Positions 45,694 through 64,000 of a stretch of 64,000 bases of DNA are shown piece after piece. Source of the DNA: Chloroflexota bacterium (GTDB taxonomy: Bacteria > Chloroflexota > Anaerolineae > Anaerolineales > Anaerolineaceae); NCBI GenBank assembly GCA_021825925.1, contig JAKAFP010000002.1:124001-188000 (forward strand), read 5' to 3'. The position numbers and the translations under genes are program-made. The notes below the pieces were generated by a model. That model did not search any database. It saw only the letters and a list, made by a program, of their open reading frames with translations, and had not been told where the DNA came from. How positions within the stretch are numbered: the stretch's first letter is position 1; each line of letters starts with the position of its first letter.

Positions 45694-45718
45694 AACACCA
45701 AGCAACATGAAAAACCAA

Positions 45719-45749
45719 AACCACCCAATCAGATCGGGTGGTTTTTTTT
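45719..45749 (+). terminator. Attenuator terminator upstream of ilvD
   Basis: Stem AACCACCC/GGGTGGTT (45719-45726 with 45736-45743) with a 9-nt loop is followed by a run of eight or more T. Its position before the first gene of the operon, after a leader peptide, means it works as an attenuator rather than an end-of-gene stop. Confidence 0.85.
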
Positions 45750-45778: not shown

Positions 45779-47446
45779 GTGCGCTCAGACAAGATCAAAC
45801 TAGGATTCGAACGTTCTCCCCACCGGGCTTTGTTAAAAGCAACCGGCGTTACTGACGCCGATATGAACAAACCCTTCATTGCCATCGTCAATTCCTACGT
45901 GGATGTTGTTCCTGGACATGTACACTTGCAAGCCTTCGGTAAGATCATTAAAGATGCCGTCCGTGCTGCAGGTGGAGTGCCTTTCGAATTCAATACCATT
46001 GCCGTGGATGATGGCATCGCCATGGGACATCAGGGTATGAAATACTCGCTGCCCTCACGTGAACTGATCGCTGACAGTGTAGAGACCATGCTCGAGGCAC
46101 ACCAATTCGATGGCATGGTGTGTATTCCAAACTGCGACAAGATCGTTCCGGGGATGTTAATGGCTGCCATGCGCGTCAACATCCCCGCAATTTTTGTTTC
46201 AGGCGGCCCAATGCCCGCCGGCCGCACCCCTGATGGCGAAGCCGTTGACCTGATCTCAGTTTTTGAAGGGGTCGGCGCCTACCAGACTGGAAAAATTGAC
46301 CTGCAGCGTTTGAAAATGCTCGAAGATCTGGCCTGCCCCGCATGCGGATCATGCTCTGGCATGTTTACCGCAAACAGCATGAACTGCCTGATGGAAGCTT
46401 TAGGCCTGGCACTGCCCTACAACGGGTCTGCTTTAGCCCTCACCCCAGAACGTGACTCCATTGCTCAAAAAGCGGCGGGCTTGATCATGACCCTGGTTGA
46501 AAAGAACATCACCCCCCGCCAGATCGTTACCGCCGAAGCTTTCGACGATGCTTTTGCTTTGGACATGGCCATGGGTGGTTCTTCCAATACCGTTTTGCAT
46601 GCACTAGCGATCGCCAATGAAGCCGGAGTGGATTATTCACTCGAACGCATCAGCAAGGTCGCGGATCGCATCCCTTACCTGTGCAAGGTCAGCCCGGCTG
46701 GTAAATGGCACATGGAAGATGTTCACCGCGCCGGCGGCATCCCTGCTATCCTCGCTGAGCTGCAAAACAATGCCCACTGCCTGCACACCGACCGCATCAC
46801 CGTAACCGGTGAATCCTTTGGTAAAAGCTTTGCCAATGCAAAGATCCTCGATCCTGAAGTAATCCATCCTTACGCTCAAGCCTATTCCCCTCGCGGTGGC
46901 CTATCCGTTCTCTTCGGCAACCTGGCCCCCAATGGCGCAGTGGTAAAAACCGGCGGTGTCAGCGAGAACATGAAAAAATTCAGCGGACCCGCCCGCATCT
47001 ATGATTCACAAGATGCTGCCCTGGCAGGCATCATGGCCGGTGAAGTCAAAGCCGGTGAAGTGGTCGTCATCCGTTACGAAGGTCCCAAGGGCGGCCCCGG
47101 TATGCAAGAAATGCTCTCTCCCACCAGCGCACTGATGGGCATGGGTTTGGGCGACAAGGTTGCTCTGATCACCGATGGCCGATTCTCCGGTGGTACCCGC
47201 GGGGCCTGCATCGGACACGTTTCACCTGAAGCCGCTGCACGCGGCCCCATCGCGGCATTGCAAGCCGGTGACATGATCGAACTCGATATTGAAGCAAGAG
47301 TTTTGAATGTCAAACTGGATGACGCCACCATAAAATCCCGTCTGGCAGCATTGCCCGAATTTCAAACGACCATTCAAAGCCGTTGGCTGAGACGATATTC
47401 CAGCATGGTCACCAGCGCCGATACTGGTGCTGTGCTGCGCTACTAA
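45779..47446 (+). CDS. ilvD: Dihydroxy-acid dehydratase
   Basis: A 555-residue Fe-S enzyme that dehydrates 2,3-dihydroxy-isovalerate and -methylvalerate, the third common step to Val and Ile. Cluster motifs are [12 protein letters not shown] near residue 118 and [17 protein letters not shown] near 188. The substrate motif [15 protein letters not shown] near 264 and the C-terminal GRFSGGTRG near 463 are present. The start is GTG 45779, 7 nt after GGAGG. It is first in the eleven-gene ilv-leu operon and lies just past the attenuator. Confidence 0.96.
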
Positions 47447-47480
47447 GCAACTTTTTATTTGGAATTATTTTGGAGGAATG

Positions 47481-49187
47481 ATGAAGAAGACTGGTGCACA
47501 GATTTTTTGGGAATGTTTGGAACGTGAAGGGGTTGAGGTAATCTTTGGTTATCCCGGTGGGGCCACCCTGCCGATCTATGATGCTCTGGTCACCAGCAAA
47601 ATTCATCATGTCCTCGTTCGCCATGAACAGGGAGCCTCGCATATGGCGGATGGATACGCACGAGCCTCAGGCCGCGTGGGTGTTGCCCTGGCCACTTCTG
47701 GCCCTGGGGCCACCAATCTGATCACCGGCATCGCCACCGCTTTGATGGATTCTTCTCCCGTTGTCTTCATTACCGGTCAGGTTTCAAGCCCCTTGATCGG
47801 ATACGATGCCTTCCAGGAAACAGACGTGACCGGCATCACCCTGCCCATCACCAAACACAACTATCTGATCACAAATGTCAATGATATTGCCCCCACCATC
47901 CGTGAAGCTTTCTTCCTGGCAAAATCCGGTCGGCCTGGCCCTGTCTTGATTGACATCACCAAAGATGCCCAACAGGCCACGATTGACTGGGAATATAACG
48001 ACAAACCTGCCCATTTACCGGGTTACCGCCCAGATTTTCGGCCTGCCAATTCAGAATTCGATCGGGCCATAGAATTGATCCAAAATGCCCAAAAACCTGT
48101 CATTCTGGCAGGTCACGGTATATTGATCAGCGGCGCCATGGATGAAGTGTTGGAATTTGCAGAAAGAACTCAAACCCCGGTAGCCGACACCTTATTGGGC
48201 TTGGGCGCTTTCCCCGGCTCTCACTCACTTTCTTTGGGCATGATGGGCATGCATGGAGAAGCCTGGGTCAATAAAGCCATTCAAGAAGCTGATCTTTTAC
48301 TGGCTTTTGGGATGCGTTTCGATGACCGCGTAACCGGCAAGGTCAGCCACTATGCACCCAAGGCTAAAAAGATCCATATTGAGATTGACCCTTCCGAGGT
48401 CAACAAAAACGTCCAGGTGGATATTGCCTTGGTCGGTGATCTAAAAGAAACCCTGCAAAAGTTACTGCCCTCCATTACCACAGCTGATCACTCCGCGTGG
48501 CTTGAAGAGATCAATACACTAAGAGGTCACAGTGCCGTTCGTGACATCAAGAATCTGCCCGATAACGGTCATTTATACGCCGCCCATGTGATCAATGCGT
48601 TATGGCAGGTCACCAAGGGTGAGGCAATCATCGTCTCTGATGTCGGTCAAAACCAGATGTGGACGGCCCAATATTACAAACACGACCGCCCCAATACCTC
48701 CATCACCTCAGGCGGATTGGGCACCATGGGTTTTGGTCTGCCCGGTGGCATCGGCGCCAAATTCGCCAAACCCGACCAGGAAGTCTGGGTCATCGCTGGA
48801 GACGGCGGCATTCAAATGACACAGGCGGAACTATCAACCATCGCCCAGGAAGGCATCAAGGTTAATATCGCCATTTTAAACAACGGTTACCTCGGCATGG
48901 TGCGGCAGTGGCAGGAGTTTTTCTACGACAAACGTTATTCCGCCACCCCCATGAAGGGACCGGATTTGGTAAAGATCGCTGAAGCCCACGGATTAACAGG
49001 CTTACGAGTAACCAGCCGTGACCAGGTTGTGGACGCAATTGAAGCTGCCCGCAAGAACCCAGGAACTGTTTTGATTGATTTCAAGGTTGAAAAAGAAGAC
49101 AGTGTTTACCCCATGGTACCAACCGGCGCAGCCATTGATGCCATGATCCGCCGCCCCCTGCCTGAGTCAGTGGTCCAGGAATCTTAG
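47481..49187 (+). CDS. ilvB: Acetolactate synthase, large subunit
   Basis: A 568-residue ThDP enzyme that joins two pyruvates, or pyruvate and 2-oxobutyrate, at the first common step of the pathway. The catalytic Glu lies in VRHEQGASHMADGYARA, followed by SGPGATNLITG. The ThDP/Mg motif is GDGGIQMTQAEL...NNGYLGMVRQWQ. Start: two ATGs (47478 and 47481) follow GGAGG; I choose 47481 because it gives the same 4-nt gap as in ilvN. The frame upstream to 47427 has no ribosome site. It is followed by its small subunit ilvN 32 nt later. Confidence 0.95.
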   Translation: MKKTGAQIFWECLEREGVEVIFGYPGGATLPIYDALVTSKIHHVLVRHEQGASHMADGYARASGRVGVALATSGPGATNLITGIATALMDSSPVVFITGQVSSPLIGYDAFQETDVTGITLPITKHNYLITNVNDIAPTIREAFFLAKSGRPGPVLIDITKDAQQATIDWEYNDKPAHLPGYRPDFRPANSEFDRAIELIQNAQKPVILAGHGILISGAMDEVLEFAERTQTPVADTLLGLGAFPGSHSLSLGMMGMHGEAWVNKAIQEADLLLAFGMRFDDRVTGKVSHYAPKAKKIHIEIDPSEVNKNVQVDIALVGDLKETLQKLLPSITTADHSAWLEEINTLRGHSAVRDIKNLPDNGHLYAAHVINALWQVTKGEAIIVSDVGQNQMWTAQYYKHDRPNTSITSGGLGTMGFGLPGGIGAKFAKPDQEVWVIAGDGGIQMTQAELSTIAQEGIKVNIAILNNGYLGMVRQWQEFFYDKRYSATPMKGPDLVKIAEAHGLTGLRVTSRDQVVDAIEAARKNPGTVLIDFKVEKEDSVYPMVPTGAAIDAMIRRPLPESVVQES

Positions 49188-49219
49188 TTGCTTGTTATTG
49201 ATCGAATTTTGGAGGAATC

Positions 49220-49762
49220 ATGCGTCATACATTTGTAGCTTTAGTAGAAGATAAACCGGGTGTGCTGAACAGAGTGGTCTCTGTCTTTCGAAGACGAACA
49301 TTCAACATCGAATCGCTGACCGTCGGGCGCACCCATCAGGAAGGCATTTCGCGTATCACCATCGTGGTGGATAGTGACAAGACCGACGTCGAGCGAATCA
49401 TGCCCTACATGTACAAACTGATCAACGTCTTACAGGTCGAAGACCTCACCTACCAGCCGCACGTCAACCGCGACCTGGCCATGGTCAAGATCACTGCCAC
49501 CCCCGAGAACCGGGCAGCCATCATGCAGTTGGCCGAAGTCTTCCGCGCCCGTGTGGTGGACGTAACCAACAATTCTCTGATCATAGAGATCACTGGTGAT
49601 GAAGAGAAAATTGATGGTTTTGTGGATGTGCTGCGTCCTTACGGCATCATCGAAATGGTCCGCACCGGCATCATCGCCATGGAACGTGGCTCCTCAACCC
49701 TGATCAACAACATGGTTGAAAATCAAAATTATGAACTTCCCATCGAATACAAGATGGCTTAA
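49220..49762 (+). CDS. ilvN: Acetolactate synthase, small (regulatory) subunit
   Basis: A 180-residue regulator of acetolactate synthase. The N-terminal ACT domain (FVALVEDKPGVLNRVVSVFRRR, residues 4-25) binds valine for feedback control, and the C-terminal domain (about 80-165) completes the regulatory fold. GGAGG lies 4 nt before the ATG. It follows ilvB, its usual partner. Confidence 0.95.
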   Translation: MRHTFVALVEDKPGVLNRVVSVFRRRTFNIESLTVGRTHQEGISRITIVVDSDKTDVERIMPYMYKLINVLQVEDLTYQPHVNRDLAMVKITATPENRAAIMQLAEVFRARVVDVTNNSLIIEITGDEEKIDGFVDVLRPYGIIEMVRTGIIAMERGSSTLINNMVENQNYELPIEYKMA

Positions 49763-49800
49763 CGAAATTATTCTACATTACACAAACAAGGAGAAAAAAA

Positions 49801-50857
49801 ATGGCAAAGATCAATTTTGGTGGTGTTATCGAAGATGTGGTTACCCGTGAAGAGTTCCCCCTTTCACGTGCCCAGGAAGTCTTGAAGAATGAAGTCGTAG
49901 CAGTATTAGGTTACGGTGTACAGGGACCTGCCCAATCCCTTAACATGCGCGACAACGGCATCAACGTAATCATCGGCCAGAGAGAGAATCTGCCCGAATG
50001 GGATAAAGCCATCAAAGACGGCTGGGTTCCTGGAAAAACCCTCTTCTCACTCGAAGAAGCCACCAAACGCGGAACCATCATCCAATTTTTGGTCTCAGAC
50101 GCCGCCCAGAAAATGATCTGGCCGACCGTCAAACCCTACATCAATGAAGGCGATGCCATCTACTTCTCACACGGTTTCAGCATCGTCTATGCCGATCAAA
50201 CCGGCGTTGTTGCACCCAAAAACGTGGATGTCATCCTCGTCGCCCCCAAAGGTTCTGGCACCAGTGTACGCCGCAATTTCCTGGATGGTTCAGGTATTAA
50301 TAGCAGCTATGCAGTACATCAGGATTACACCGGTCGCGCCACCGAACGTACCATGGCCGTCGGCATTGCCGTGGGGTCCGGTTATCTCTTCCCGACCACC
50401 TTTGAGCAGGAAGTCTACAGCGACCTGACCGGCGAACGCGGCGTCTTGATGGGATGCCTGGCCGGCGTGATGGAAGCCCAATACGAAACCCTGCGCAAGT
50501 ACGGACACTCCCCCAGTGAAGCTTTCAACGAAACCGTTGAAGAACTCACCCAGAGTCTCATCCGTCTTGTGGCAGAAAACGGCATGGACTGGATGTATGC
50601 CAACTGCTCAACCACTGCTCAACGCGGTGCCCTGGATTGGCGCCCTGAATTCAAAAAAGCCACCCTGCCTGTGTTTGAAAGACTCTATAACAGTGTCAAG
50701 ACCGGCGAAGAAACCCGCATCACCATTGAAGCCAACAGCAAGCCTGATTATCAGGTGAAATTATCTGCAGAACTGAAAGAGATCCACGATTCAGAAATGT
50801 GGCAGACCGGCGCCACCGTCAGGTCGCTGCGCCCTGAAAACTGGGGTAAGGTCAACC

Positions 50858-50865
<8 letters not shown>
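49801..50865 (+). CDS. ilvC: Ketol-acid reductoisomerase
   Basis: A 354-residue NAD(P)H enzyme for the second common step (isomerisation then reduction of acetolactate). The cofactor motif is [18 protein letters not shown] near residue 36; Bacillus-type enzymes have GYGSQGHAHALNL, so S to V and H to P/Q changes give an unusual version. Conserved metal ligands lie in [22 protein letters not shown], and it ends [11 protein letters not shown], closer to the variant found in eukaryotes and Bacteroidota. SD AAGGAG precedes the ATG. The next gene, leuA, overlaps by 8 nt. Confidence 0.94.
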
Positions 50866-52480
<1,615 letters not shown>

Positions 52481-52506
52481 CTATTCATGAAGTAAGGAGA
52501 ATTATT

Positions 52507-52695
52507 ATGAAACCTGCACAATACTCCCAAATCCCTCAGACCGAGAGACCCATGGAAACCTTCCCACAGCCACGCACCATCCCCGAAGCCTGGGATATGT
52601 CCAACATGTTCACCTCCGATGAAGCCGGTTTTGACCTCAACGACACTGCCAAACCCACTGAAGAAACCGGAAGTGAAAAATGGGAAGCCCATTAA
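52507..52695 (+). CDS. Small acidic Pro-rich protein between leuA and leuC
   Basis: A 62-residue protein with a good ribosome site (TAAGGAGAATT before ATG 52507). It is rich in Pro, Glu and Thr ([20 protein letters not shown]) and lacks a membrane segment or Cys. Its last 16 nt overlap leuC, so its translation is probably coupled to leuC. It may be a small pathway protein or exist mainly to control leuC translation. I do not recognise a family. Confidence 0.6.
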
Positions 52696-54113
52696 CCCTT
52701 TTTCAGAAAGTCTGGAACGAACATTTAGTCACTCAACAGCCAGGCGCGCCAGGGATCTTGTATATTGACTTGCACCTGGTCCATGAAGTGACTTCCCCCC
52801 AGGCTTTCTCCAGTCTGCGCTCGCGTGGACTGGTCGTCCGCCGGCCAGACCGAACCATCGCCACCGTGGATCACGGCGTACCCACTCTGCCCTCCAAAGA
52901 TGGCACGGTTGAAGGTCGCCTGGCCTGGGCGGATGATCTCTGCCGCAAACAGATCGCGCAGCTTGAAGACAACGCCAAGACCTTTGGCATCCGCGCCTTT
53001 GGCCCCTCAAGTTCGAACAACGGCATCGTACACGTCATTGCCCCTGAATTGGGATTCACCCAGCCTGGCATGACTATCGTGTGCGGTGACAGCCATACCT
53101 CCACCCACGGCGCTTTCGGAGCACTGGCTTTTGGCATCGGCACCAGCGAAGTTGAGCATGTTTTAGCTTCTCAATGCCTCTTGCAGCACCAGCCTAAAAC
53201 CATGAAAGTGCGCATCGAAGGCAAACTTGCCAAAGGTGTGACTGCCAAGGATATCATCCTGGCGTTGATCGCCAAGATCGGTGTCGGCGGCGGCATCGGT
53301 TATGTGCTGGAATACTGTGGTTCTGCCATCCGTGCCTTGAGCATGGAAGAACGCATGACCATCTGCAACATGTCCATTGAAGCAGGTGCACGCGCCGGCA
53401 TGATCGCCCCGGATGAAGTCACCTACGACTACATCAAAGGCCGTGAATTCGCCCCCAAGGGTGCCGAATGGGATAAAGCCCTGGCCTATTGGAAGAGCCT
53501 TCCCACCGACGCAGGCGCCACTTATGACCGCAGTGTCACTCTGGATGCCGCCAGCCTGGAACCCATGGTCACCTTCGGTACCAATCCAGGTATGGGTATT
53601 CCTGTGAATGGCAGGATCCCCACCACAGCCGCTTTTACCGACGAAAGTCAGAAAACCGGACTCGAGAAATCCCTGACCTACATGGGATTGGATGCAGGCA
53701 GTTCACTTTTGGGACACCCCATCAATGTGGTCTTCATCGGCAGCTGCACCAATGGCCGCCTTTCCGACCTGCAGGAAGCCGCCAGCATCATGCGCGGACG
53801 CAAGGTCGCTGCCGGAGTGCGCGCCCTGGTGGTACCAGGTTCACAACAAGTCAAACGCCAGGCTGAAGCCCAAGGTCTCGACAAGGTTTTCAAAGAAGCC
53901 GGCGCCGAATGGCGTGAAGCTGGCTGCAGCATGTGCATTGCCATGAACGGCGACCAAATCGCCCCCGGCGAATACGCGGTCAGTACCAGCAATCGCAACT
54001 TTGAAGGCCGTCAAGGCAAGGGCGGACGCACCTTTTTGGCCAGTCCGCTGACTGCCGCCGCTGCCGCCGTTACCGGTTGTGTCACCGACGTCCGCACTTT
54101 GATGGAAAGCTGA
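52680..54113 (+). CDS. leuC: 3-isopropylmalate dehydratase, large subunit
   Basis: A 477-residue aconitase-family subunit. Start is the ATG 52680 ([17 protein letters not shown]), matching the family N-terminus. Cluster cysteines sit in [13 protein letters not shown] and [13 protein letters not shown], where the CxxC binds the 4Fe-4S cluster that does the isomerisation. The sequence [12 protein letters not shown] ends the active site. With LeuD it turns 2- into 3-isopropylmalate and, on the isoleucine side, acts on citramalate. Confidence 0.95.
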
Positions 54114-54125
54114 AAGGGAATCACC

Positions 54126-54728
54126 ATGGAACCTATCAAAACGATCACCTCACGTGCCATATCCCTTCCCCTGGATGACATTGACACCGATCAGATCATC
54201 CCCGCGCGCTTTCTCAAAGTGACCGACAAGGCCGGCCTGGCTGCCAACCTGTTTTCAGACTGGCGCTACAACGCGGATGGTTCGCCCAAGCCCGAGTTCC
54301 TGCTCAACCAACCGGCTGCTCAGGGTGCGCGCATTTTGTTTACCGGCAACAACTTTGGCTGTGGATCCTCCCGCGAACATGCTCCCTGGGCTCTAACCGG
54401 TTTTGGTTTTAATGCAGTCGTGGCCTTATCTTTTGGTGATATTTTCCGAAATAATTCGCTCAAAAACGGTTTACTGCCCATCCAGGTGGATGCTGGCACA
54501 CACGAGCGCTTGAAAGACCTGCTGGACGAAATTCCGCGCGCCGAGTGGACCATTGACCTCGAAGCCCAAACGCTAAATACGCCTGACGGCGAAAGCGTTC
54601 ACTTTGAAATTGATGCCTTTTCCAAGACCTGCCTGGTTCAAGGCAATGATGAACTGGGTTACCTGCTGTCTTTTAGCGACCAGGTCAAGGCTTATGAAGT
54701 TTCGCACCATAAACAGGTGGCAACATGA
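54126..54728 (+). CDS. leuD: 3-isopropylmalate dehydratase, small subunit
   Basis: A 200-residue swivel-domain partner of LeuC. Motifs are DDIDTDQIIPARFLK near residue 17 and GNNFGCGSSREHAPWAL near 75. Length fits the larger bacterial type. It begins 12 nt after leuC, with AAAGGGAA upstream, and its stop overlaps the cimA start (ATGA, 54725-54728). Confidence 0.95.
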   Translation: MEPIKTITSRAISLPLDDIDTDQIIPARFLKVTDKAGLAANLFSDWRYNADGSPKPEFLLNQPAAQGARILFTGNNFGCGSSREHAPWALTGFGFNAVVALSFGDIFRNNSLKNGLLPIQVDAGTHERLKDLLDEIPRAEWTIDLEAQTLNTPDGESVHFEIDAFSKTCLVQGNDELGYLLSFSDQVKAYEVSHHKQVAT

Positions 54729-56299
54729 TCGAAATATACGATACCACCCTCAGAGACGGCACGCAGCGCAAGGATATCTCGCTTTCTTGCAGCGATAAAC
54801 TGCGCGTGGCGCAGCGTTTGGATGAGCTGGGCGTCACCTTCATCGAAGGCGGCTGGCCTGGTTCAAACCCCAAGGATGTCGAATTTTTCAGCCGAGCTGC
54901 AGAAATCAACTGGAAGCACGCCCTGATCGCAGCCTTTGGCTCAACTTGCCGTGCCAAGGGCGGACCCGAAGACGATGCCAACATCAAGGCGCTGCTCGAT
55001 GCCAACACTCCGGTCTGCACCATCTTTGGCAAGACCTGGACGCTGCATGTCACCGATGTGCTGCGCACCACCCTGCCGGATAATCTGCGTATTATTGAGC
55101 AGAGTGTGGCTTACCTGCGCTCCAAAGGCAAGCGGGTGATCTACGACGCCGAGCACTTCTTCGACGGCTACAAAGAAGATCCCGCATACGCGCTTGAAAC
55201 ACTCAAAGCGGCCATCCGCGGCGGGGCGGAACGGGTGGTCATGTGCGACACCAACGGCGGCACCCTGCCGCATGAAGTGAGTACAATCGTAAAAGCTGTG
55301 CGTGAAGCCGTTGAAATTCCTCTTGGCATCCACGCTCATAATGACGGCGAATGCGCAGTGGCCAACAGCCTCGCGGCGGTTCAAGCCGGCTGCACCCAGG
55401 TGCAGGGCACCATCAACGGTTACGGCGAACGCTGCGGCAACGCAAACCTGTGTTCGATCCTGCCCGACCTGGAACTGAAATTGGGTTACCCATGCCTTGA
55501 AAAAGGCAAATTGGCCGGGCTGTATGAACTCTCCCACTTTGTGGCAGAGATGGCCAACCTTTCGCCGGATGAGTACCTGGCTTATGTAGGTCAGGCTGCT
55601 TTTGCCCACAAGGGCGGCGTGCACGTCAGCGCCATGCGCCGTTCAGCCAAGTCTTATCAGCATATTGATCCGGCTTTGGTGGGCAATCACATGAGCGTGG
55701 TCGTTTCGGAGCTTTCAGGTAAAGCCAATATTCTCAGCAAAGTAGAAGAGTACGGCCTTGAGGTGGAAGATAACGAACACGTCACCAGCACGTTAAACAA
55801 CATTAAGGAATTGGAAGCACAGGGCTTTTCTTTTGAGGCTGCAGAAGCCTCGGCCGTACTGCTCTTCAAGCGGCAGCAGCCTGAATACAAACCGCCTTTT
55901 GAACTGGTGGATTTCTTTGTCAACGTCGAAAGACGCCATGGAAGAAAGACTTTTGCTGAAGCCACTGTCAAGATCAAAGTGGGCGACGAGATCTTCCACA
56001 CCGCCGGAGAGGGTGTCGGTCCCGTGAACGCACTCGATATGGCCATGCGAAAGGCGCTGGTAGGCAATTATCCTTATATCAATGAATTTCATCTGATGGA
56101 TTACAAAGTCCGTATTCTCGATGGTTCTCTCGGCACCGAAGCCATTACGCGTGTCTTGATTGACACCCAGAACGGCTTCCACCGCTGGAGCACTGTGGGC
56201 GCCAGCGGCAACATCATTGAAGCCAGTTGGATGGCACTTGCTGATTCTTTTGAATACGGCCTGATGACCTCGAACGGCACTTTTGAAGACAGCAAATAG
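54725..56299 (+). CDS. cimA: (R)-citramalate synthase
   Basis: A 524-residue second isopropylmalate-synthase-type enzyme. The N-terminus IYDTTLRDGTQRKDISLSCSDK with FIEGGWPGSNPKD, in place of [13 protein letters not shown], is the citramalate-synthase signature. It has IHAHNDGECAVANSLAAVQAG and AFAHKGGVHVSAMRR, and a C-terminal regulatory domain of about 120 residues. It condenses pyruvate and acetyl-CoA, which then feeds the same LeuCD-LeuB enzymes to give 2-oxobutyrate and isoleucine without threonine deaminase. No ilvA is in the operon, which agrees with this. Confidence 0.93.
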   Translation: MIEIYDTTLRDGTQRKDISLSCSDKLRVAQRLDELGVTFIEGGWPGSNPKDVEFFSRAAEINWKHALIAAFGSTCRAKGGPEDDANIKALLDANTPVCTIFGKTWTLHVTDVLRTTLPDNLRIIEQSVAYLRSKGKRVIYDAEHFFDGYKEDPAYALETLKAAIRGGAERVVMCDTNGGTLPHEVSTIVKAVREAVEIPLGIHAHNDGECAVANSLAAVQAGCTQVQGTINGYGERCGNANLCSILPDLELKLGYPCLEKGKLAGLYELSHFVAEMANLSPDEYLAYVGQAAFAHKGGVHVSAMRRSAKSYQHIDPALVGNHMSVVVSELSGKANILSKVEEYGLEVEDNEHVTSTLNNIKELEAQGFSFEAAEASAVLLFKRQQPEYKPPFELVDFFVNVERRHGRKTFAEATVKIKVGDEIFHTAGEGVGPVNALDMAMRKALVGNYPYINEFHLMDYKVRILDGSLGTEAITRVLIDTQNGFHRWSTVGASGNIIEASWMALADSFEYGLMTSNGTFEDSK

Positions 56300-56311
56300 A
56301 TAAGGATCCTC

Positions 56312-57376
56312 ATGACAGAATTTAATATTACCCTTTTACCCGGTGACGGCATCGGACCCGAAGTGGTGGCGCAGGCTGTCAGGGTTTTGGATGAAATCTC
56401 CCGCCGCATCGGAGTGGTTTTTCACACCGAAGAACACCAGATTGGCGGCTGCTCGATTGACAAGTACGGCACTGCCCTCACGGATGAAACACTGGCTGCC
56501 TGCCAGAAATCTGATGCAGTGCTGCTGGGTGCAGTGGGCGGTCCCAAGTGGGATAACCCTGATTCCAAGGTTCGACCTGAGCAGGGTTTGCTCGGCTTGC
56601 GCAAGGGTCTTGGCGTTTACGCCAACCTGCGGCCAGTCAAAGTGCATCCAGCCCTGGTGGCTGCCTCACCTCTCAAGCCAGAAAAACTGGCCGGCGTGGA
56701 TATGATCGTGGTGCGTGAACTGACAGGCGGTCTGTATTTTGGGCAGCCTAAAGGCCGTGAGATCGTTGATGGCCATGAACGCGCCGTGGATACCCTCGTC
56801 TACACTGACGACGAGATCCGCCGTGTGGTGCGCATGGCCTTCAAACTGGCCGAGAAGCGCCGCAAGAAGGTCACTTCCGTGGATAAAGCCAACGTGCTTG
56901 AATCCTCCCGGCTGTGGCGCAAGATCACCATCGAAGTGGCTGCAGAGTTCCCCGGCATTACACTGGAACATACCCTGGTGGATACCGCCGCCATGCGTTT
57001 GATCACCTCCCCTGCTGCAACGGATGTGATGGTCACCGAGAACATGTTCGGCGACATCCTCACCGACGAGGCCTCTGTACTGGCCGGATCCATGGGCATG
57101 CTGCCATCCGCCTCTCTGGGCGATGCGGGCGCCGGGCTTTACGAACCCATCCACGGCTCCGCCCCTGATATTGCCGGCCGCGGAATTGCCAACCCCATAG
57201 GTACGATCTTAAGCGCCGCCTTGATGCTGCGCTATTCCCTGAACATGGAAAAAGAAGCCGTCATGATCGAAAGGGCGGTTGAAAAGACCATCAGCGACGG
57301 CGCCCGTTCCGCCGATCTTGGGGGCAGCCTGACCACCACCCAAATGGCGGATCTGATCATCAAGAATATGGAGTAA
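56312..57376 (+). CDS. leuB: 3-isopropylmalate dehydrogenase
   Basis: A 354-residue NAD-linked decarboxylating dehydrogenase. It starts ITLLPGDGIGPEVVAQAV, with substrate-binding RPEQGLLGLRKGLGVYANLRP near residue 90, and the metal/NAD motif TDEASVLAGSMGMLPSASLG near 250. It works in leucine synthesis and, with CimA, on 3-methylmalate. AAGGATCC precedes the ATG. It starts 12 nt after cimA. Confidence 0.95.
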   Translation: MTEFNITLLPGDGIGPEVVAQAVRVLDEISRRIGVVFHTEEHQIGGCSIDKYGTALTDETLAACQKSDAVLLGAVGGPKWDNPDSKVRPEQGLLGLRKGLGVYANLRPVKVHPALVAASPLKPEKLAGVDMIVVRELTGGLYFGQPKGREIVDGHERAVDTLVYTDDEIRRVVRMAFKLAEKRRKKVTSVDKANVLESSRLWRKITIEVAAEFPGITLEHTLVDTAAMRLITSPAATDVMVTENMFGDILTDEASVLAGSMGMLPSASLGDAGAGLYEPIHGSAPDIAGRGIANPIGTILSAALMLRYSLNMEKEAVMIERAVEKTISDGARSADLGGSLTTTQMADLIIKNME

Positions 57377-57439
57377 TCAATACCATGCGGCACCCCAGCG
57401 TGCGCATGATCATCACACAAGCATTTTGGAGGGAACACA

Positions 57440-58357
57440 ATGGGTAACGAGAGCAAGTTTATTTGGATGGACGGGGAACTGATCGAATTTGCCAAGGCCA
57501 CCGTGCCTTTTTTGACCAGCGCTCTACATTACGGTTCGGCTGTCTTCGAAGGCATCCGCTGCTATAAAACAGATAAAGGTCCTGCTGTTTTCCGTTTGAA
57601 GGAACACATGGAACGCCTGGTGGATTCCGCCATGGTGTTGGGATTCAAAAGCCTGCCCTATACCGCTGAAGAGTTGGGCGAAGCTGTGAAGAAGACCATC
57701 ACCGCCAACGGATTTGAAGAATGCTACATCCGCCCCCTGATCTACAGCGGCGGCCCCGTGCTCAGCCTTAACCTTGATGTCACGCAGGCCAAGGTCGGTA
57801 TCGCAGTCTGGGATATGGGCGCCTACCTGGGCAAGGATGCACTAGAAAACGGCATCCGCGCACATGTTTCTTCTTATACCCGCCACCATCCCAATGTCAC
57901 CATGACCAAGGCCAAGGTTTCTGGCAATTACGCCAACAGCCTGTTGGCCAAGACAGAATCCGTCCGTTTGGGCTTTGATGAAGCCATCTTGCTCGATCCG
58001 CAAGGTTACGTGGCCGAATGCTCTGGCGAGAACCTCTTCGTTGTGCGCGGCGATACCATCTACACCTCTCACACCGCAGCCATTCTCGAAGGCATCACCC
58101 GCAATTCACTGCTGACCATCTGCAACGACCTCGGCTATACCCTCAAGGAACAGCCCATTTCACGCGATCAACTCTATATCGCCGATGAATTGTTCGTCTG
58201 CGGCACCGCCGCCGAGTGCATCGCCATCCGTGAAGTGGATTTCAGGGTCATCGGCAGCGGCAAGGCCGGCCCGATCACCCAAAAGATCCAGGCTGCCTTC
58301 CACGAAACCTTGCGCGGCAAAGGCAAACACTCCCCCGAGTGGTGCGCCTACGTATAA
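57440..58357 (+). CDS. ilvE: Branched-chain amino acid aminotransferase
   Basis: A 305-residue fold-type IV PLP enzyme for the last step to Leu, Ile and Val. YGSAVFEGIRCYKTDKGP near residue 33 and the PLP lysine in AKVSGNYANSLLAK near 160 are conserved, as is EGITRNSLLTICNDLG near 215. GGAGGG precedes the ATG by 7 nt, and the gap from leuB is 63 nt. It is last in the operon, which ends in an intrinsic terminator. Confidence 0.95.
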   Translation: MGNESKFIWMDGELIEFAKATVPFLTSALHYGSAVFEGIRCYKTDKGPAVFRLKEHMERLVDSAMVLGFKSLPYTAEELGEAVKKTITANGFEECYIRPLIYSGGPVLSLNLDVTQAKVGIAVWDMGAYLGKDALENGIRAHVSSYTRHHPNVTMTKAKVSGNYANSLLAKTESVRLGFDEAILLDPQGYVAECSGENLFVVRGDTIYTSHTAAILEGITRNSLLTICNDLGYTLKEQPISRDQLYIADELFVCGTAAECIAIREVDFRVIGSGKAGPITQKIQAAFHETLRGKGKHSPEWCAYV

Positions 58358-58461: not shown

Positions 58462-58501
58462 AATTCTATTGAAAAAAGTCATTAAAAATAAGGAGGGTAT
58501 T

Positions 58502-59326
58502 ATGACAGTAATCGTTACTATCATTAGTAAATCAGCATGTGTACACGCCTCAGATTCCTTTCTCACAATAGAAAAATTAACTGGAAGTGTTGATGTTATT
58601 GAAAAACATAAAACAAAAATCATTCCAGTTCCTTTTTTTTATGGAGCTCTATCTTATTGCGGAATGGCTAGTGGTCAAATAGTAAATAGTTATGGACGAT
58701 TGGTGAATTTCGAAACATATGAATGGTTAAAACAAAAATCGGCTAACGCAAGGAATTTTTCTACACCTGAAGAATTCGGTAATTATTTAAAGGACCAACT
58801 TAACTCCACCATTTCCGTTCAAAATTTTGGTGCAAATAAATACAAAACTGGCATAGTTATTCATTTTTCTGCATATGAAAAAATAGAAGGAGTTTTTATT
58901 CCAGAATTATTTGCAATTAGGAATTGTAACGGTATTAATTATCAAGACATAAGTCAAAATGGTTTTTCCATTTATAGAAGTACCTATGAATCAATACCTG
59001 AAGAGAAGAAATTACCAGATAAGGATATTAATCAAAATAATTATGAATGTAGAAAATTAGTTAAAGAATATCTTCAAAATGGTGGCATCTTTTTCTTTAA
59101 TAATGGGGATCCTTGGTTGAGTTCTCCATCGATAAATGCAATTCTTCGTATGAGTAAAGTAGCGAATGATCGTAATATACTAATTAATTCAACTGAAATT
59201 GATTTATTAAAAGAAATTGCAATTTGGGTGATAAAATCAGTCATTAAGTTTCAAGAAAAATTTTTACTAGCTGGTAGACAAGTTGTTGGTGGATATATTC
59301 ATACCAAAGTTATAAAATCAAGGTAA
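58502..59326 (+). CDS. Ntn-hydrolase-like protein (proteasome-beta-like N-terminus), AT-rich orphan
   Basis: A 274-residue protein with a strong ribosome site (AAGGAGGG, 58490-58497). After Met removal the first residue would be Thr2, and MTVIVTIISKSACVHASDS resembles the N-terminal strand pair of proteasome/HslV-type Ntn hydrolases (Thr nucleophile, then ASDS). KTKIIPVPFFYGALSYCGMASG fits the next strands. The catalytic Lys and the autocleavage propeptide cannot be confirmed, so function is open. The gene is far more AT-rich than both neighbouring operons, with many AAT, ATT and TTA codons, which suggests recent transfer. The frame is open from a TTG at 58469, but 58502 is better supported. 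Confidence 0.55.
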   Translation: MTVIVTIISKSACVHASDSFLTIEKLTGSVDVIEKHKTKIIPVPFFYGALSYCGMASGQIVNSYGRLVNFETYEWLKQKSANARNFSTPEEFGNYLKDQLNSTISVQNFGANKYKTGIVIHFSAYEKIEGVFIPELFAIRNCNGINYQDISQNGFSIYRSTYESIPEEKKLPDKDINQNNYECRKLVKEYLQNGGIFFFNNGDPWLSSPSINAILRMSKVANDRNILINSTEIDLLKEIAIWVIKSVIKFQEKFLLAGRQVVGGYIHTKVIKSR

Positions 59327-59373: not shown

Positions 59374-59402
59374 TTGACAAATGCAACAAAAATGGCTATG
59401 AT
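59374..59402 (+). promoter_or_regulatory. Promoter of the aro operon
   Basis: TTGACA (59374-59379) and TATGAT (59397-59402) are separated by exactly 17 nt. The predicted start is near 59409, about 16 nt before the leader peptide ATG. Confidence 0.78.
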
Positions 59403-59424
59403 ACTTAGAAATATAAAGGAATAA

Positions 59425-59508
59425 ATGAACAAATCATCTTTTAACTTCTATTTTAGCTACGTCTATTTTTATGGCTTTGGGAACCCAAAGACCTCTGACG
59501 CCGCTTAA
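59425..59508 (+). CDS. aro operon leader peptide (Phe/Tyr attenuator)
   Basis: A 27-residue peptide not otherwise annotated. Residues 6-18 read FNFYFSYVYFYGF, with five Phe and four Tyr in 13. AAAGGA (59415-59420) is an adequate ribosome site 4 nt before ATG 59425. The composition matches pheA- or tyr-type leaders and suits an operon that contains DAHP synthase, chorismate mutase and prephenate dehydrogenase. There is no Trp, so tryptophan supply is not sensed here. Confidence 0.82.
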   Translation: MNKSSFNFYFSYVYFYGFGNPKTSDAA

Positions 59509-59535
59509 GTAGTTTTAGAACAAAGAAGTAAGAAC

Positions 59536-59570
59536 AAAGAGCGAGGTCAAAGGCCTCGCTCTTTTTATTT
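59536..59570 (+). terminator. Attenuator terminator upstream of aroF
   Basis: Perfect 11-bp stem AAAGAGCGAGG/CCTCGCTCTTT (59536-59546 with 59554-59564) with a 7-nt loop, followed by T-rich sequence. It comes between the leader peptide and the first gene. Confidence 0.88.
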
Positions 59571-59586
59571 TTCAACGGGAGAAAAC

Positions 59587-60642
59587 ATGATGATGATTAT
59601 TATGAGCACTGAAGCTTCAGAAGTCCAAATTGACGAGGTGTTGGCCAAGATCAACACTCTCGGATTCACCCCCCATACTTCCCGAGGCGCTGAACGCACA
59701 GTGATCGGCGTGGTGGGCAACAATCCCATCAACGCCCGCGACACCTTCATGGTCATGGACGGTGTGGACCGCATCGTTCCCATTTCACGACCATACAAAT
59801 TGGCTTCACGCGAGTTCATTCCCGAGAACTCCTCCTTCCCTCTGGACGGGGTGCAGATGGGGGGCGACGGTGTGGTGCTGATCGCTGGCCCCTGCGCAGT
59901 GGAAGACCGCAACCAGATCCTTGAAACGGCCCTGGCCTGCCAGGAAGCCGGCGCCCACGCCCTGCGCGGCGGCGCTTTCAAACCCCGCACCTCACCCTAC
60001 GCCTTCCAGGGATTGGGTGAAAAAGCCCTCGAGATGATGGCCGAAGTTCGCGAGATCACCGGCATGCCGGTGGTGACCGAAGCCATGTCACCTGAACAGG
60101 TGCCCCTGATCGCCAAATATGCCGATGTGATCCAGATCGGCGCACGCAATATGCAAAATTACAGCCTGCTCAATGCCGCCGGCGAAAGCCAGACCCCGGT
60201 GCTGCTCAAACGCGGCATGTCAGCCACGATTGAAGAACTGCTCATGGCCGCGGAATACATCCTCTCGCACGGCAACCGCAAGGTCATCCTGTGCGAACGC
60301 GGCATCCGCACTTACGAAACGTCCACTCGCAACACCACGGATATCAACGCTATTCCCGTGCTCAAAAGCCTGACCCACCTGCCCGTCATTTTGGATCCCA
60401 GCCACAGCACCGGTCAGTGGCAGTATGTCACGGCCGTGGCGCGGGCCGGGGTGGCCGCCGGCGCGGACGGATTGATCATTGAAGTGCATCCCAACCCCGA
60501 AAAAGCCATGTCTGACGGTGGACAGTCGCTCAAACCCGAAAAATTCGCCACGCTGGTGCGTCAGATCCGCGGTATAGCCGAAGCAGTCGGTCGGTACGTG
60601 CCCCCCAGCAAGGTTCCTCAGAAAACCCAGGGGCAGGCGTAA
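59587..60642 (+). CDS. aroF: 3-deoxy-7-phosphoheptulonate (DAHP) synthase
   Basis: A 351-residue type I-beta DAHP synthase that joins phosphoenolpyruvate and erythrose-4-phosphate, the entry step to the shikimate pathway. The N-terminal ferredoxin-like regulatory domain (residues about 5-70, [19 protein letters not shown]) marks the I-beta type with chorismate-branch feedback. The barrel has [16 protein letters not shown] near 103, [17 protein letters not shown] near 127, and the metal site [10 protein letters not shown] near 275. GGGAGAAAAC precedes ATG 59587; MMM starts allow some play in the first residues. First gene after the attenuator. Confidence 0.95.
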
Positions 60643-60643
60643 G

Positions 60644-61012
60644 ATGGCGGTACGTGGAATTCGCGGCGCCATCACCTGTCAGGCAGACGAAGACTCCATC
60701 CTCGCCGCCACCCGGGAATTACTTACTGCCATGCTGAAGGCCAATCCTTCATTACAGACTGCGGATATGGCCAGTGTGTGGTTCACCGTCACAAGTGATC
60801 TGCAGCTGGTTCATCCTGCCAAAGCCGCGCGTGAAATGGGCTGGAATGAAGTGCCCCTTATGTGCTCAATGGAAATTGATGTCCCAGGCAGTCTGCCTCA
60901 GTGTGTACGGGTCTTGATCCACTGGAACACCGACCTGCCCCAATCCGCGGTTAAACACGTTTATCTGCGTGATGCCGTCAAACTCCGTCCGGACCTCAGC
61001 CATGCAGACTGA
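60644..61012 (+). CDS. aroH: Chorismate mutase, AroH class
   Basis: A 122-residue trimeric-type chorismate mutase converting chorismate to prephenate. It starts VRGIRGAITCQADEDSILAATREL, with the family signature ASVWFTVTSDL and a C-terminal KHVYLRDAVKLRPDL that holds the active-site Arg and Tyr. It starts 1 nt after aroF, so translation is likely coupled. Confidence 0.93.
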   Translation: MAVRGIRGAITCQADEDSILAATRELLTAMLKANPSLQTADMASVWFTVTSDLQLVHPAKAAREMGWNEVPLMCSMEIDVPGSLPQCVRVLIHWNTDLPQSAVKHVYLRDAVKLRPDLSHAD

Positions 61013-61913
61013 TCAAAACGCTCCCGATCCAGAGTCCGCATGGGTGCCCAAGACCCTCGCCGAAACCAGCGTCGCCATTTGGGGCATCGGTTTGATGGGT
61101 GGTTCGCTGACCATGGCTCTGCGCGGAAAAACGGCCGCCCTCTTCGGTATTGATCCTGATGATCAGGTCTGCCGCCAGGCTGTTGAAATGAAGCTTTTCA
61201 ACCAGGTTGGTTCGAACCCGGCAGAACTTTTATCAAAAGCCAACCTGATCATCGTGTGCGCCCCTTTGGGGTTGATCCCTGACTTATTAAAACAGATTCC
61301 GCTTGATCACCCCGGTCATGCGATCGTCATGGACATAGGTTCCACCAAAAAGAACATTCTACCCATCATGGAAGAACTGCCCAAGCGTTTCATTCCCATC
61401 GGCGGACATCCCATGTGCGGCAAGGAAGTGCGTTCGCTCTCAAACGCGGATGGCGACCTCTATCAGGGCGGCAGTTTCGCACTTCTGGAGCTGCCTCGTA
61501 CCACCCAGGCTGCTTCACACCTGGTGCTGCAGTTGGTCAAAGCCATCGGTGCACATCCCGTCTGGTTGGATCCGCTGGAACACGACCGCTGGGCTTCAGC
61601 CATCAGTGCCCTGCCCTACCTGGTGGCCAACTGCCTCTCAGGTGTCACGCCGCTTGAAGCGGCGCCCCTGGTTGGACCCGGTTATAAAAGCACCACCCGC
61701 CTGGCAGCGGAAAATATTGATATGATGCATTACATTCTCAGCAATAACCGCGAAAATGTGCTCGCGGACTTAAAGAATTTTCACGGCCGTTTGGAATTGA
61801 TCGAAAAAGCATTGGAAAAGAACGACTTTGAAGCGTTGCACGACCTTTTCAAGGAAGGTGCCGCCCGCCGTTCTGCAATCATGGACTCATTTGACAAAGG
61901 AGGGAAATCATGA
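61002..61913 (+). CDS. tyrA: Prephenate dehydrogenase
   Basis: A 303-residue NAD(P)-linked enzyme of the tyrosine branch. The dinucleotide motif VAIWGIGLMGGSLTMAL is near residue 24 and the catalytic IPIGGHPMCGKE near 129. The C-terminal helical dimer domain runs to the end; no ACT domain is fused. It could also act on arogenate. Start: ATG 61002, overlapping aroH by 11 nt, without a clear ribosome site; a GTG at 60969 would be longer. The last 4 nt overlap aroA. Confidence 0.9.
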   Translation: MQTDQNAPDPESAWVPKTLAETSVAIWGIGLMGGSLTMALRGKTAALFGIDPDDQVCRQAVEMKLFNQVGSNPAELLSKANLIIVCAPLGLIPDLLKQIPLDHPGHAIVMDIGSTKKNILPIMEELPKRFIPIGGHPMCGKEVRSLSNADGDLYQGGSFALLELPRTTQAASHLVLQLVKAIGAHPVWLDPLEHDRWASAISALPYLVANCLSGVTPLEAAPLVGPGYKSTTRLAAENIDMMHYILSNNRENVLADLKNFHGRLELIEKALEKNDFEALHDLFKEGAARRSAIMDSFDKGGKS

Positions 61914-63253
61914 ACCTGATTTCAAAATCTGGTAACCCCTTGACCGGAACCGTAGCCGCGGAACTTCCGGGCGATAAATCCATCTCGCATCGTGCCGCCC
62001 TTTTCGCCGCTTTCGCGGATGGCACCAGCCGCATTGAGCATTTCCAGGTTTCCGGTGTAACCCGTCCCATGCTGCAAGCTTTAACGTCTTTCGGCATCCA
62101 ATGGTCACTGGAGGGTGAAACCCTGATGGTTGAAGGCCGCGGCATAGGCGCCTGGAAAAACCCCACCTTCCCCATAGATTGCGGTAATTCCGCCACCACC
62201 CTGCGGCTGCTGGCCGGTGCCATCACCGGAGCGGGCGTCACCGCCACCCTGGATGGCAGTTACGGCCTGCGCCGCCGCCCCATGGACCGTATTGTGGACC
62301 CCTTGCGCAAGATGGGTGCGGTGATCAAGACCACTCCCGGCGGCATTGCACCTCTGACCATACAAGAACGCGCGGAAGGACAAAAACTTAAACCGCTGAC
62401 CTATGACCTGCCGGTCGCCAGTGCCCAGGTGAAATCCTGCCTGCTGTTGGCCGCCCTGGGTGCGGAAGGCACGACCGTGCTCAATGAACCCGGTCCTTCA
62501 CGCGACCACACTGAACGCATGCTCTCAAGCATGGGTGTGACGGTCAAATCGTATGAAGTGGAAGCGCATAACACCCTCCGCTACATGGTGGAACTTACTC
62601 CTCCAAATCCGTTGGTGCTCTCGCCATTAAATATGTCACTCCCGGCAGACCCCTCCGCGGCGGCCTTTTTGATCGTGGCCGCGCTGATCATCCCTGGTTC
62701 ATCCCTTGTGCTCAAGGGTGTCTGCCTGAACCCCACCCGCACCGGTCTGCTGGACGCCCTGCAAGCCATGGGCGGCGATATCACCATATCAAATCAACAT
62801 GAGTCCGGTGGAGAACTGGTCGGCGATCTGCTGGTAAATGCCTCAGATCTGCAAGGCACACAGGTTGGCGGTTCATTGGTGGTACGGATGATAGACGAGT
62901 TCCCCATTTTTGCCATCGCAGCCGCGTTCGCTCATGGCACCACGGTTGTCCATGACGCACACGAACTGCGCCTCAAAGAATCAGATCGCATCGCCATGCT
63001 GGCAGCCGAATTACGCAAGTTGGGTGTGGAGATCGAAGAACATCCCGATGGCTTCACCATCCACGGCGGAAAACTGCAGGGTGGCACGGTTGAATCCCAC
63101 GGGGATCACCGCCTGGCCATGTCGCTGGCCGTGGCCGGATTGGCGGCCGAATCACCCGTCACCATTCAGCAGGCCGATTGCACGGCTGAATCCTTCCCTG
63201 CCTTTGCCGCCAAGCTGCAAAAGTTAGGCGCATTGATTGTCAGCGAGGGTTAA
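61910..63253 (+). CDS. aroA: 3-phosphoshikimate 1-carboxyvinyltransferase (EPSP synthase)
   Basis: A 447-residue two-domain enzyme that transfers enolpyruvyl to shikimate-3-phosphate. Motifs are LPGDKSISHRAALFAAFADG near residue 20 (Lys and Arg for substrate), DCGNSATTLRLLAGAITG near 85 (PEP site NSATT/R), RPMDRIVDPLRKMG near 123, and RLKESDRIAMLAAELRKLG near 358. The Gly-Asn-Ser-Ala-Thr-Thr motif in place of GNAGT suggests class II-like glyphosate behaviour, though a test is needed. ATGA overlap with tyrA. Confidence 0.94.
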   Translation: MNLISKSGNPLTGTVAAELPGDKSISHRAALFAAFADGTSRIEHFQVSGVTRPMLQALTSFGIQWSLEGETLMVEGRGIGAWKNPTFPIDCGNSATTLRLLAGAITGAGVTATLDGSYGLRRRPMDRIVDPLRKMGAVIKTTPGGIAPLTIQERAEGQKLKPLTYDLPVASAQVKSCLLLAALGAEGTTVLNEPGPSRDHTERMLSSMGVTVKSYEVEAHNTLRYMVELTPPNPLVLSPLNMSLPADPSAAAFLIVAALIIPGSSLVLKGVCLNPTRTGLLDALQAMGGDITISNQHESGGELVGDLLVNASDLQGTQVGGSLVVRMIDEFPIFAIAAAFAHGTTVVHDAHELRLKESDRIAMLAAELRKLGVEIEEHPDGFTIHGGKLQGGTVESHGDHRLAMSLAVAGLAAESPVTIQQADCTAESFPAFAAKLQKLGALIVSEG

Positions 63254-63258
63254 CCGCC

Positions 63259-64000
63259 ATGCCAGATACCTATTCGCTTGGACTCACTGGTTTTCCACTC
63301 GGACACAGCCTTTCGCCCGTGCTTCATCAAACCGCTTTGGCTGAAGCCGGATTGACCGGCAAGTATGAACTCTTTACTGTTCCTCCCCTGCCTGAAGGTC
63401 AAAAAGACCTCGAGGTGCTGCTCAATCGTCTGCGCTCAGGTGAACTTCACGGATTGAACGTGACCATTCCGCATAAGCAGTCCGTCATTCCGCTGGTGGA
63501 TGAACTCTCGCCCTCAGCGGCAGCCATGGGTGCTGTCAACACATTGTATGTGCGATTTGGCAAGCTGGTTGGAGATAACACAGACGCCCCCGGTTTTTGG
63601 GGGGATCTTGCTCACCTACCGATTCAAAAAGCCAAATCCGCGCTGATCTTGGGAGCCGGTGGCGCTGCCCGAGCCGTGGTTTACGCCCTGCTTACCCATG
63701 GATGGACCGTCCGCATTACGGATTTGCGCCAAGAACAAGTGGATAGTCTCTATACGCATTATTCCGCACAGGAACTCGATTCCTCCAGGCTTGAAGTGAT
63801 TCCTTTTGCGCCTCAAGCCATTGAAACAGCTGGTTTGGATTCCGATCTGGTGGTAAATACCACCCCCGTGGGCATGCATCCGAATATTGACCACTGCGCC
63901 TGGCCTGGAAATATCCCCCTGCCGGCGCGTGCCTGCATTTATGACGTGGTGTACAATCCAATGGAAACCAAATTTTTAAGACTTGCCGCCGGCGCCGGGC
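63259..64000 (+). CDS. aroE: Shikimate dehydrogenase (3' truncated by window edge)
   Basis: The frame is open from ATG 63259 to the window end, 247 codons. It begins YSLGLTGFPLGHSLSPVLHQ, the shikimate-binding start. GLNVTIPHKQSVIPLVDEL near residue 60 has the catalytic Lys, then GDNTDAPGFWGDL near 108 and the NADP motif ILGAGGAARAVVYALL near 130. It starts 5 nt after aroA, so the aro operon continues out of the window, where aroB, aroC, aroK or pheA might follow. Confidence 0.93.
   Translation, partial: MPDTYSLGLTGFPLGHSLSPVLHQTALAEAGLTGKYELFTVPPLPEGQKDLEVLLNRLRSGELHGLNVTIPHKQSVIPLVDELSPSAAAMGAVNTLYVRFGKLVGDNTDAPGFWGDLAHLPIQKAKSALILGAGGAARAVVYALLTHGWTVRITDLRQEQVDSLYTHYSAQELDSSRLEVIPFAPQAIETAGLDSDLVVNTTPVGMHPNIDHCAWPGNIPLPARACIYDVVYNPMETKFLRLAAGAG

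Follow-up and report, generated by a model that had tools for sequence, protein, structure and literature searches.

A predicted ribosome-mediated Phe/Tyr attenuator 5′ of an aro gene cluster and its relatives in Chloroflexota

The pheL leader peptide of Escherichia coli is rich in Phe, the amino acid leaders of Proteobacteria have families of their own in Rfam, and a T-box binds tRNA directly, with no translated leader needed. Of the leaders described so far, the closest is that of aroR-aroF in Corynebacterium glutamicum, reportedly the subject of work by Neshat et al. in 2014. In the available passages of PMC11802643 and PMC4046766, aroR is a Phe-Tyr-Phe leader located 5′ of a DAHP synthase gene and acting by ribosome-stalling transcription attenuation; in the passages of the former, Phe limitation acts on it and Tyr availability is without effect. 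Passages of PMC11802643 likewise describe attenuation with a Phe-rich leader peptide for E. coli pheA (pheL) and pheST, and excerpts of PMC1183508 set out the control codons, the region I–IV logic and the ribosome–polymerase race of the trp and his attenuators.

As to the range of such systems, the authors of a 2010 survey state that they knew of leader-peptide systems shown only in Proteobacteria and Actinobacteria before their own Firmicutes case, and Chloroflexi go unmentioned in the part of the survey available (PMC2965389). In a survey of RNA motifs from 2013, Chloroflexi are credited with T-boxes, the term leader peptide being absent from the available part (PMC3766115), and T-boxes 5′ of trpE in Dehalococcoides have been published (PMC2494555, in excerpt). 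Our literature search found no description of leader-peptide attenuation in Chloroflexota, the accessible parts of PMC9413887 and PMC1262725 included; since subscription papers and preprints lay outside this search, we call the attenuator family described below apparently undescribed, and no more. The mechanism is a textbook one, and it is the Chloroflexota family and the lineage that are apparently new.

The window, that is, the whole 64,000-nucleotide stretch of DNA analysed here (G000:C14:124001-188000), contains a short region 5′ of its aro operon that, judged from its sequence, is very probably a ribosome-mediated transcription attenuator that senses Phe and Tyr (Table 1). An earlier reading of the letters alone, hereafter the sequence-only reading, had proposed a Phe/Tyr attenuator for this operon, and it is supported by the conserved codons, the partly co-varying alternative folds and the stall folding presented below. 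The likeness to C. glutamicum aroR-aroF lies in a leader of Phe and Tyr codons 5′ of DAHP synthase, and we claim a functional likeness alone; the phylum is another one, and nine aromatic codons stand in the window against the Phe-Tyr-Phe of the C. glutamicum leader, as the latter is given in the available passages. A mixed Phe–Tyr leader had been called unusual, which the aroR example, likewise 5′ of DAHP synthase, contradicts. In E. coli pheA and pheST, as far as the source at hand goes, the signal is Phe and one or few genes are concerned, whereas the window would combine Phe and Tyr over a nine-gene operon that begins with DAHP synthase. Unlike the trp and his attenuators of the excerpted PMC1183508, it would respond to two alternative signals, and its leader stop codon lies inside the antiterminator strand.

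Table 1. Features of the predicted attenuator, the aro operon and the upstream ilv/leu operon (positions in the window)
Feature	Position	Strand	Evidence or remark
Promoter, sigma-70-type, TTGACA-17-TATGAT	59374..59402	+	11/12 consensus bases
Leader peptide ORF, 27 codons + TAA, MNKSSFNFYFSYVYFYGFGNPKTSDAA	59425..59508	+	sequence, ORF scan
Control codons F6 F8 Y9 F10 Y12 Y14 F15 Y16 F18	59440-59478	+	nine Phe/Tyr within residues 6-18
Protector (1:2) hairpin, predicted to sequester the upstream antiterminator strand	59473..59493	+	RNA fold
Antiterminator upstream strand (region 2)	59488..59507	+	duplex with 59538-59557, -18.1 kcal/mol
Antiterminator downstream strand (region 3)	59538..59557	+	duplex energy, covariation
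Intrinsic terminator hairpin, then TTATTTTT	59536..59564	+	sequence scan, covariation
aroF, DAHP synthase (type I, ferredoxin-like domain), first gene	59587..60642	+	Pfam PF00793, PF18152
aroH-type chorismate mutase	60644..61012	+	Pfam PF07736
tyrA, prephenate dehydrogenase	60969..61913	+	Pfam PF02153, PF20463
aroA, EPSP synthase	61910..63253	+	Pfam PF00275
aroE, shikimate dehydrogenase, extends beyond window	63259..64000	+	Pfam
Ile/Leu/Val-rich leader MNFFASLVLISIILVLVLIESQITVGWKREGVKA	45589-45693		before ilvD of ilv/leu operon
Terminator of ilv/leu leader	45717-45745		before ilvD
ilv/leu operon	45779-58357		5′ of aro operon; last ORF ends 58357

The promoter, the leader ORF with its ribosome site, the hairpin and the terminator of the sequence-only reading were each found again at the same positions. 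When the window and six relatives were compared, the promoter hexamers and their spacing proved identical in L083, L084 and L085, and TTGACA-17-TACGAT is present in L086; the match is weaker in L107 (9/12 consensus bases), and no comparable promoter was found in L087, whose best match is 6/12. AAAGGAA precedes the leader ORF, giving a Shine-Dalgarno match of five bases. The RNA from 59409 to 59574 folds at -46.1 kcal/mol, compared with -28.9 (sd 3.69) in 200 shuffles (z = -4.66), and in the fold the protector consists of GGCUUUGG with CCAAAG-A-CC. Region 2 takes in the end of the leader ORF and two bases of its stop codon; region 3 comprises most of the 5′ arm of the terminator, plus the loop and the beginning of the 3′ arm, and the antiterminator fold excludes both the terminator fold and the protector fold. 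The GACCTC at 59490-59495 and the GAGGTC at 59543-59548, which had been proposed to pair, are both present, but their pairing alone amounts to -8.3 kcal/mol and is a shifted part of the antiterminator. These six pairs as the entire antiterminator are thus superseded by the register 59488-59507:59538-59557, at -18.1 kcal/mol.

From this arrangement, we infer a transcription start, translation of the leader and a response to starvation that would proceed as follows. RNA polymerase would start at the promoter, with a ribosome following on the leader ORF. A shortage of charged Phe- or Tyr-tRNA would make the ribosome wait at one of the nine control codons and hold the protector hairpin open, leaving region 2 free for region 3; the antiterminator would consume the 5′ arm and loop of the terminator, and the polymerase would continue into aroF-aroH-tyrA-aroA-aroE-aroC-aroKB-aroQ-pheA. 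When both tRNAs are charged, the ribosome would come to the stop codon, inside the antiterminator strand, and block the antiterminator, so that the terminator would form. In the absence of translation, the protector hairpin would block the antiterminator, and the terminator would be expected to form too.

To fold the RNA with a stalled ribosome, everything 5′ of the ribosome was hidden and the RNA was taken to end five bases beyond the terminator loop, the ribosome footprint being assumed to cover 13 nt from the first base of the A-site codon and kinetics being ignored. In these simulations, the window has 14–16 antiterminator pairs with the ribosome at each of the nine codons and none with the ribosome at the stop or with the RNA untranslated. 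Across the family, at least eight antiterminator pairs form at some stall in 54/54 leaders, at the stop in 2/54 and without translation in 21/54. Since the G+C-rich arm pairs with almost anything, such counts need shuffle controls: a stall at the last aromatic codon gives a mean of 12.4 antiterminator pairs versus 6.9 in shuffles, and the combination of at least eight pairs at that codon with fewer than eight at the stop occurs in 45 of the 54 leaders, where 14.4 are expected from shuffles, and is missing in nine. Stall-constrained folding had been suggested as a check on the attenuator, and its outcome agrees with it, both in the window and in these 45 family leaders.

How widely the arrangement recurs was assessed at 110 DAHP synthase loci, made up of the best 80 of 573 from named genomes and 30 from related genomes, 35/61 of which had a match; removing L029, L048, L069 and L089, with less than 150 nt upstream, left 106. 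The scan covered up to 1.5 kb upstream and called for an ORF of 10–60 codons with six or more Phe, Tyr or Trp in 13 residues and a terminator after it. Such a leader and terminator stand 5′ of DAHP synthase in 58/106 listed loci; the control scans gave 2 for the reverse strand and 0 each for the 1.5 kb downstream and for shuffled sequence. The window is one of the 58, three contigs were retrieved twice, and the set reduces to 54 distinct peptides, among them MLNLSVYYRYFYFYGSQNLAAVGGV (L002) and MKQTTFSRYFSFFYYFGFGHPDASGGA (L086). A chance aromatic-rich ORF beside an ordinary terminator might be suspected, since the 1 kb upstream in the window is A+T-rich (28–31% G+C) and favours Phe and Tyr codons; however, the counts just given against their controls, together with a median of 57% G+C in the 58 positive loci (19 of them at 60% or more), leave coincidence with next to no probability.

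The other 48 listed loci were negative by the scan, some of them in Anaerolineae. At least three of these, L097, L098 and L105, are false negatives in which a leader is present (MKSSTRFFAYYYFSDSPPAAVSA in G039, MKPTRRFAFYFYFSDSPPAAVPA in G052 and MSAKYFGGYYYFGAARAATVASP in G050), missed because tandem DAHP synthase genes place it more than 1.5 kb upstream. The first ORF of at least 60 aa after the terminator in the 58 loci is aroH in 38, aroF in 15, pheA in four and an unassigned 62-aa ORF in one; proximity to aroF is built into the design of the search, and proximity to aroH and pheA is not. Support for ribosome sites is thin in the family: a Shine-Dalgarno match of three or more bases is absent from 21/58 leaders at the start codon used, and 12/58 have one of at least four bases. 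The upstream scan also found leaders on contigs titled Thermoflexales, Promineifilum and Aggregatilineales. As separate observations, a Phe/Tyr leader, MINGFQISAVNRFFMFYYFVPPGG, lies directly 5′ of aroF in L016, on a contig titled Deltaproteobacteria, and G028 (within L117) has two tandem DAHP synthase genes with an attenuator copy each (C143:35328-35441 and 36762-36874).

The aromatic run is kept in these leaders while their length and flanking residues differ. In none of the 54 distinct leaders does the run contain fewer than two Phe or fewer than two Tyr (on average 3.8 Phe and 3.4 Tyr), a minimum not imposed by the search, which scored Phe, Tyr and Trp jointly; at least one Trp occurs in the run of 15/54. 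Within the 54 leaders, then, Trp is optional, and Phe and Tyr are not. Among G000, G001, G010 and G013, the control codons differ by synonymous changes (TTT/TTC), one Tyr-to-Phe change and one Phe-to-Ser change. Synonymous changes and swaps between Phe and Tyr thus leave the codons aromatic, which is the opposite of the free variation named beforehand as evidence against the attenuator.

Codons for Phe and Tyr are one base apart, and an attenuator effectively sensing just one of the two amino acids, be it Phe or Tyr, with the other residue tolerated, has a precedent in C. glutamicum aroR, where the Phe-Tyr-Phe leader responds to Phe limitation and not to Tyr in the available text of PMC11802643. 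We consider this unlikely for the present family, although it is the most serious of the alternatives: both residues are held at no fewer than two copies in every distinct leader, the folded window RNA forms its antiterminator at Phe and at Tyr stalls, and the operon makes both amino acids. Trp codons in leaders might have marked linked trp genes, and this idea is unsupported rather than excluded: trpE is found in 32/55 genomes and its linkage was demonstrated only in L051; in the other genomes, any judgement of linkage came from contig numbers or distances.

For every one of the 54 loci, the sequence between the last aromatic codon and the terminator was tested for pairing with the terminator 5′ arm, the loop and the first bases of the 3′ arm. 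The resulting antiterminator duplexes average -21.0 kcal/mol. With dinucleotide-shuffled upstream strands the mean is -16.2, and 32/54 duplexes are better than their own shuffles at p ≤ 0.05; exchanging partner strands among the loci gives -17.4 (sd 0.41), with -18.5 as the best of 200. The antiterminator strands are matched locus by locus.

An alignment was made of 22 of the 54 loci, selected because an anchor could be recognised in them (from an initial 25, L021, L103 and L110 were excluded). In it, the consensus antiterminator strands are GCCGTTGGTGGCGCTTA and GCGAGGCCAACGGC, and the 14-pair antiterminator is 79.9% paired, versus 35.5–52.8% in slid controls. Its cells with two-sided change number 13, against 5.2 in shuffles (sd 2.2; 1/500), and its covariation score is 0.231 against 0.180 (sd 0.017), reached by 3/500, with the reservation for these and the following comparisons that sequences lacking any structure may surpass such shuffles simply through relatedness, for which the leaders were not weighted. 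The number of antiterminator pairs with two-sided change (90/500) and of pair types (128/500) is not above shuffles in the 22 loci. For the terminator, pairing is 92.6%, with 42 two-sided-change cells against 9.8 shuffled (0/500) and a score of 0.483 against 0.173, which none of the 500 shuffles reaches. Across the 22 aligned relatives, UACGGC:GCCGU corresponds to the protector, and 88.2% of its cells are paired. The predicted alternative structures are therefore conserved and partly co-varying.

These matched strands also bear on a quite different account, in which a constitutive promoter-proximal terminator happens to follow a small protein with a function of its own and starvation elicits no response. 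The leader could indeed be a small hydrophobic peptide, but its length and flanks vary while the aromatic run stays, the RNA strands are matched at each locus, and a Thr-rich version, described below, precedes aspartokinase; we regard this account as very improbable.

Downstream of the attenuator, DAHP synthase, chorismate mutase, tyrA, aroA and aroE are the genes that the sequence-only reading had named, and all five are there, although the operon is larger. In the continuation of the genome (L112), aroE is followed by aroC, an aroK-aroB fusion, aroQ and pheA, then purB. The nine-gene cluster aroF-aroH-tyrA-aroA-aroE-aroC-aroKB-aroQ-pheA contains no trp genes, and from its gene content it spans the route from DAHP synthase to prephenate and both fates of prephenate. 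All nine genes would lie on one transcript, and a single switch would then govern nearly the entire shikimate–Phe–Tyr pathway. The true start of tyrA may lie 3′ of the listed GTG. Among the best 80 of 573 named loci, the DAHP synthase closest to that of the window is from Anaerolineales bacterium UBA4823, at 73% identity, which makes a member of Anaerolineales (Chloroflexota) the most likely host.

Charging of tRNA can also be sensed by T-boxes, which in Chloroflexi share with the attenuator a link to the aromatic pathway and occur in relatives of the window (T-box control of trpE is seen in the excerpted PMC2494555); the difference is that they are found 5′ of trpE and not 5′ of the aro operon of the window. 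Of 32 trpE genes found in genomes with a leader, 20 upstream regions were inspected, and 10/20 have a T-box above cut-off on the trpE strand; T-boxes occur in 12/12 genomes searched. In five of the 20 regions (L183, L186, L191, L197 and L200), an ORF containing two or more Trp lies close to a terminator, and none was judged a convincing Trp-leader attenuator because none has a Trp run; L186, L191 and L197 hold a T-box. G000 itself has T-box matches at C14:291901-292152, C9:58805-59098, C10:162909-163147 and C1:135533-135758, two of them above cut-off and all outside the window.

Given the four sites in G000 and the T-boxes 5′ of trpE in relatives, a T-box, or a riboswitch or a protein-bound leader, might be thought to control the aro operon. 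However, no Rfam 15 family, amino acid leader families included, matches the window at its gathering cut-off, T-box RF00230 gives no match in the window, and 0/4 of the G000 sites fall inside C14:124001-188000. Such control is extremely improbable, slightly more so than the small-protein account, and we retain the ribosome-mediated attenuator.

A covariance model built from the 22 aligned loci (R1) gives full-length matches at E < 1e-6 in 46/121 relatives, 19 of which supplied training sequences, and in 27/400 genomes of the phylum, only in the family or order of the window; weaker matches elsewhere, many to the terminator part alone, were left out of these counts. In the genus (G000–G015), the leader is present in all five genomes with a close DAHP synthase (G000, G001, G002, G010 and G013), and the other 11/16 have neither a close DAHP synthase (G015 has a weak one, E 2.7e-5) nor a full-length R1 match at E < 1e-6. 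Twenty R1 matches, mainly weaker or second ones, were inspected, and 14 are Phe/Tyr leaders 5′ of aromatic genes.

Another five of the 20 lie 5′ of aspartokinase and asd, with Thr-rich leader frames such as MFVISTTTTTTMTTEWHTTTVVS. These loci (L163, L164, L166, L175 and L176, in G039, G052, G134, G151 and G038) match R1 at E 1.7e-7 to 1.5e-5, and their downstream genes were identified by a family search in L163 only and by likeness of the first residues in the other four. The Shine-Dalgarno matches of the Thr-rich leaders are of 0–5 bases, mostly weak. Phe/Tyr and Thr versions coexist in G039, G052 and G134. Since the Thr-rich leaders stand 5′ of aspartokinase-asd, the identity of the control codons follows the pathway.

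The last of the 20 (L168, G017:C303, 582-2137) has a Tyr-rich leader, MNRFYYAYAYYYYGFRFSVSPGVV, and a terminator, and the protein downstream belongs to the tryptophanase/tyrosine phenol-lyase family, scoring above the subfamily cut-off and below the equivalog ones. If this enzyme is catabolic, its induction by Tyr shortage would be odd.

On balance, we lean toward the view that Anaerolineales reuse a portable attenuator scaffold whose codons fit the pathway, with Phe/Tyr for aro, Thr for aspartokinase-asd and perhaps Tyr for the tryptophanase-family gene, Trp being left to T-boxes and the aro version working as a two-tRNA OR-gate. Of all the leads here, the most interesting is that a single scaffold carries different control codons, and the natural Phe/Tyr, Phe/Tyr/Trp and Thr variants offer a direct test of how the identity and position of control codons set specificity. 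A conserved family in Chloroflexota would widen the known range of leader-peptide attenuation, and it allows the sensing of amino acid supply to be predicted, from sequence alone, in a largely uncultured lineage.

Upstream of the aro operon, the Ile/Leu/Val-rich leader and terminator at 45589-45745 are probably a second attenuator, and G013 carries an identical ilv/leu leader peptide. This ilv attenuator had been placed 1 kb from the aro leader; it actually lies 13.7 kb upstream, and it is the end of the ilv/leu operon that is 1 kb away. Between the two operons is an A+T-rich ORF (58469-59326, 28–31% G+C) with no Pfam match. In G001, G010 and G013, an ilvE-like gene is followed after about 250 nt by aroF, and in G002 two different ORFs separate the ilvE-like gene from aroF; given this variable gap in relatives, 58469-59326 looks like an insertion site.
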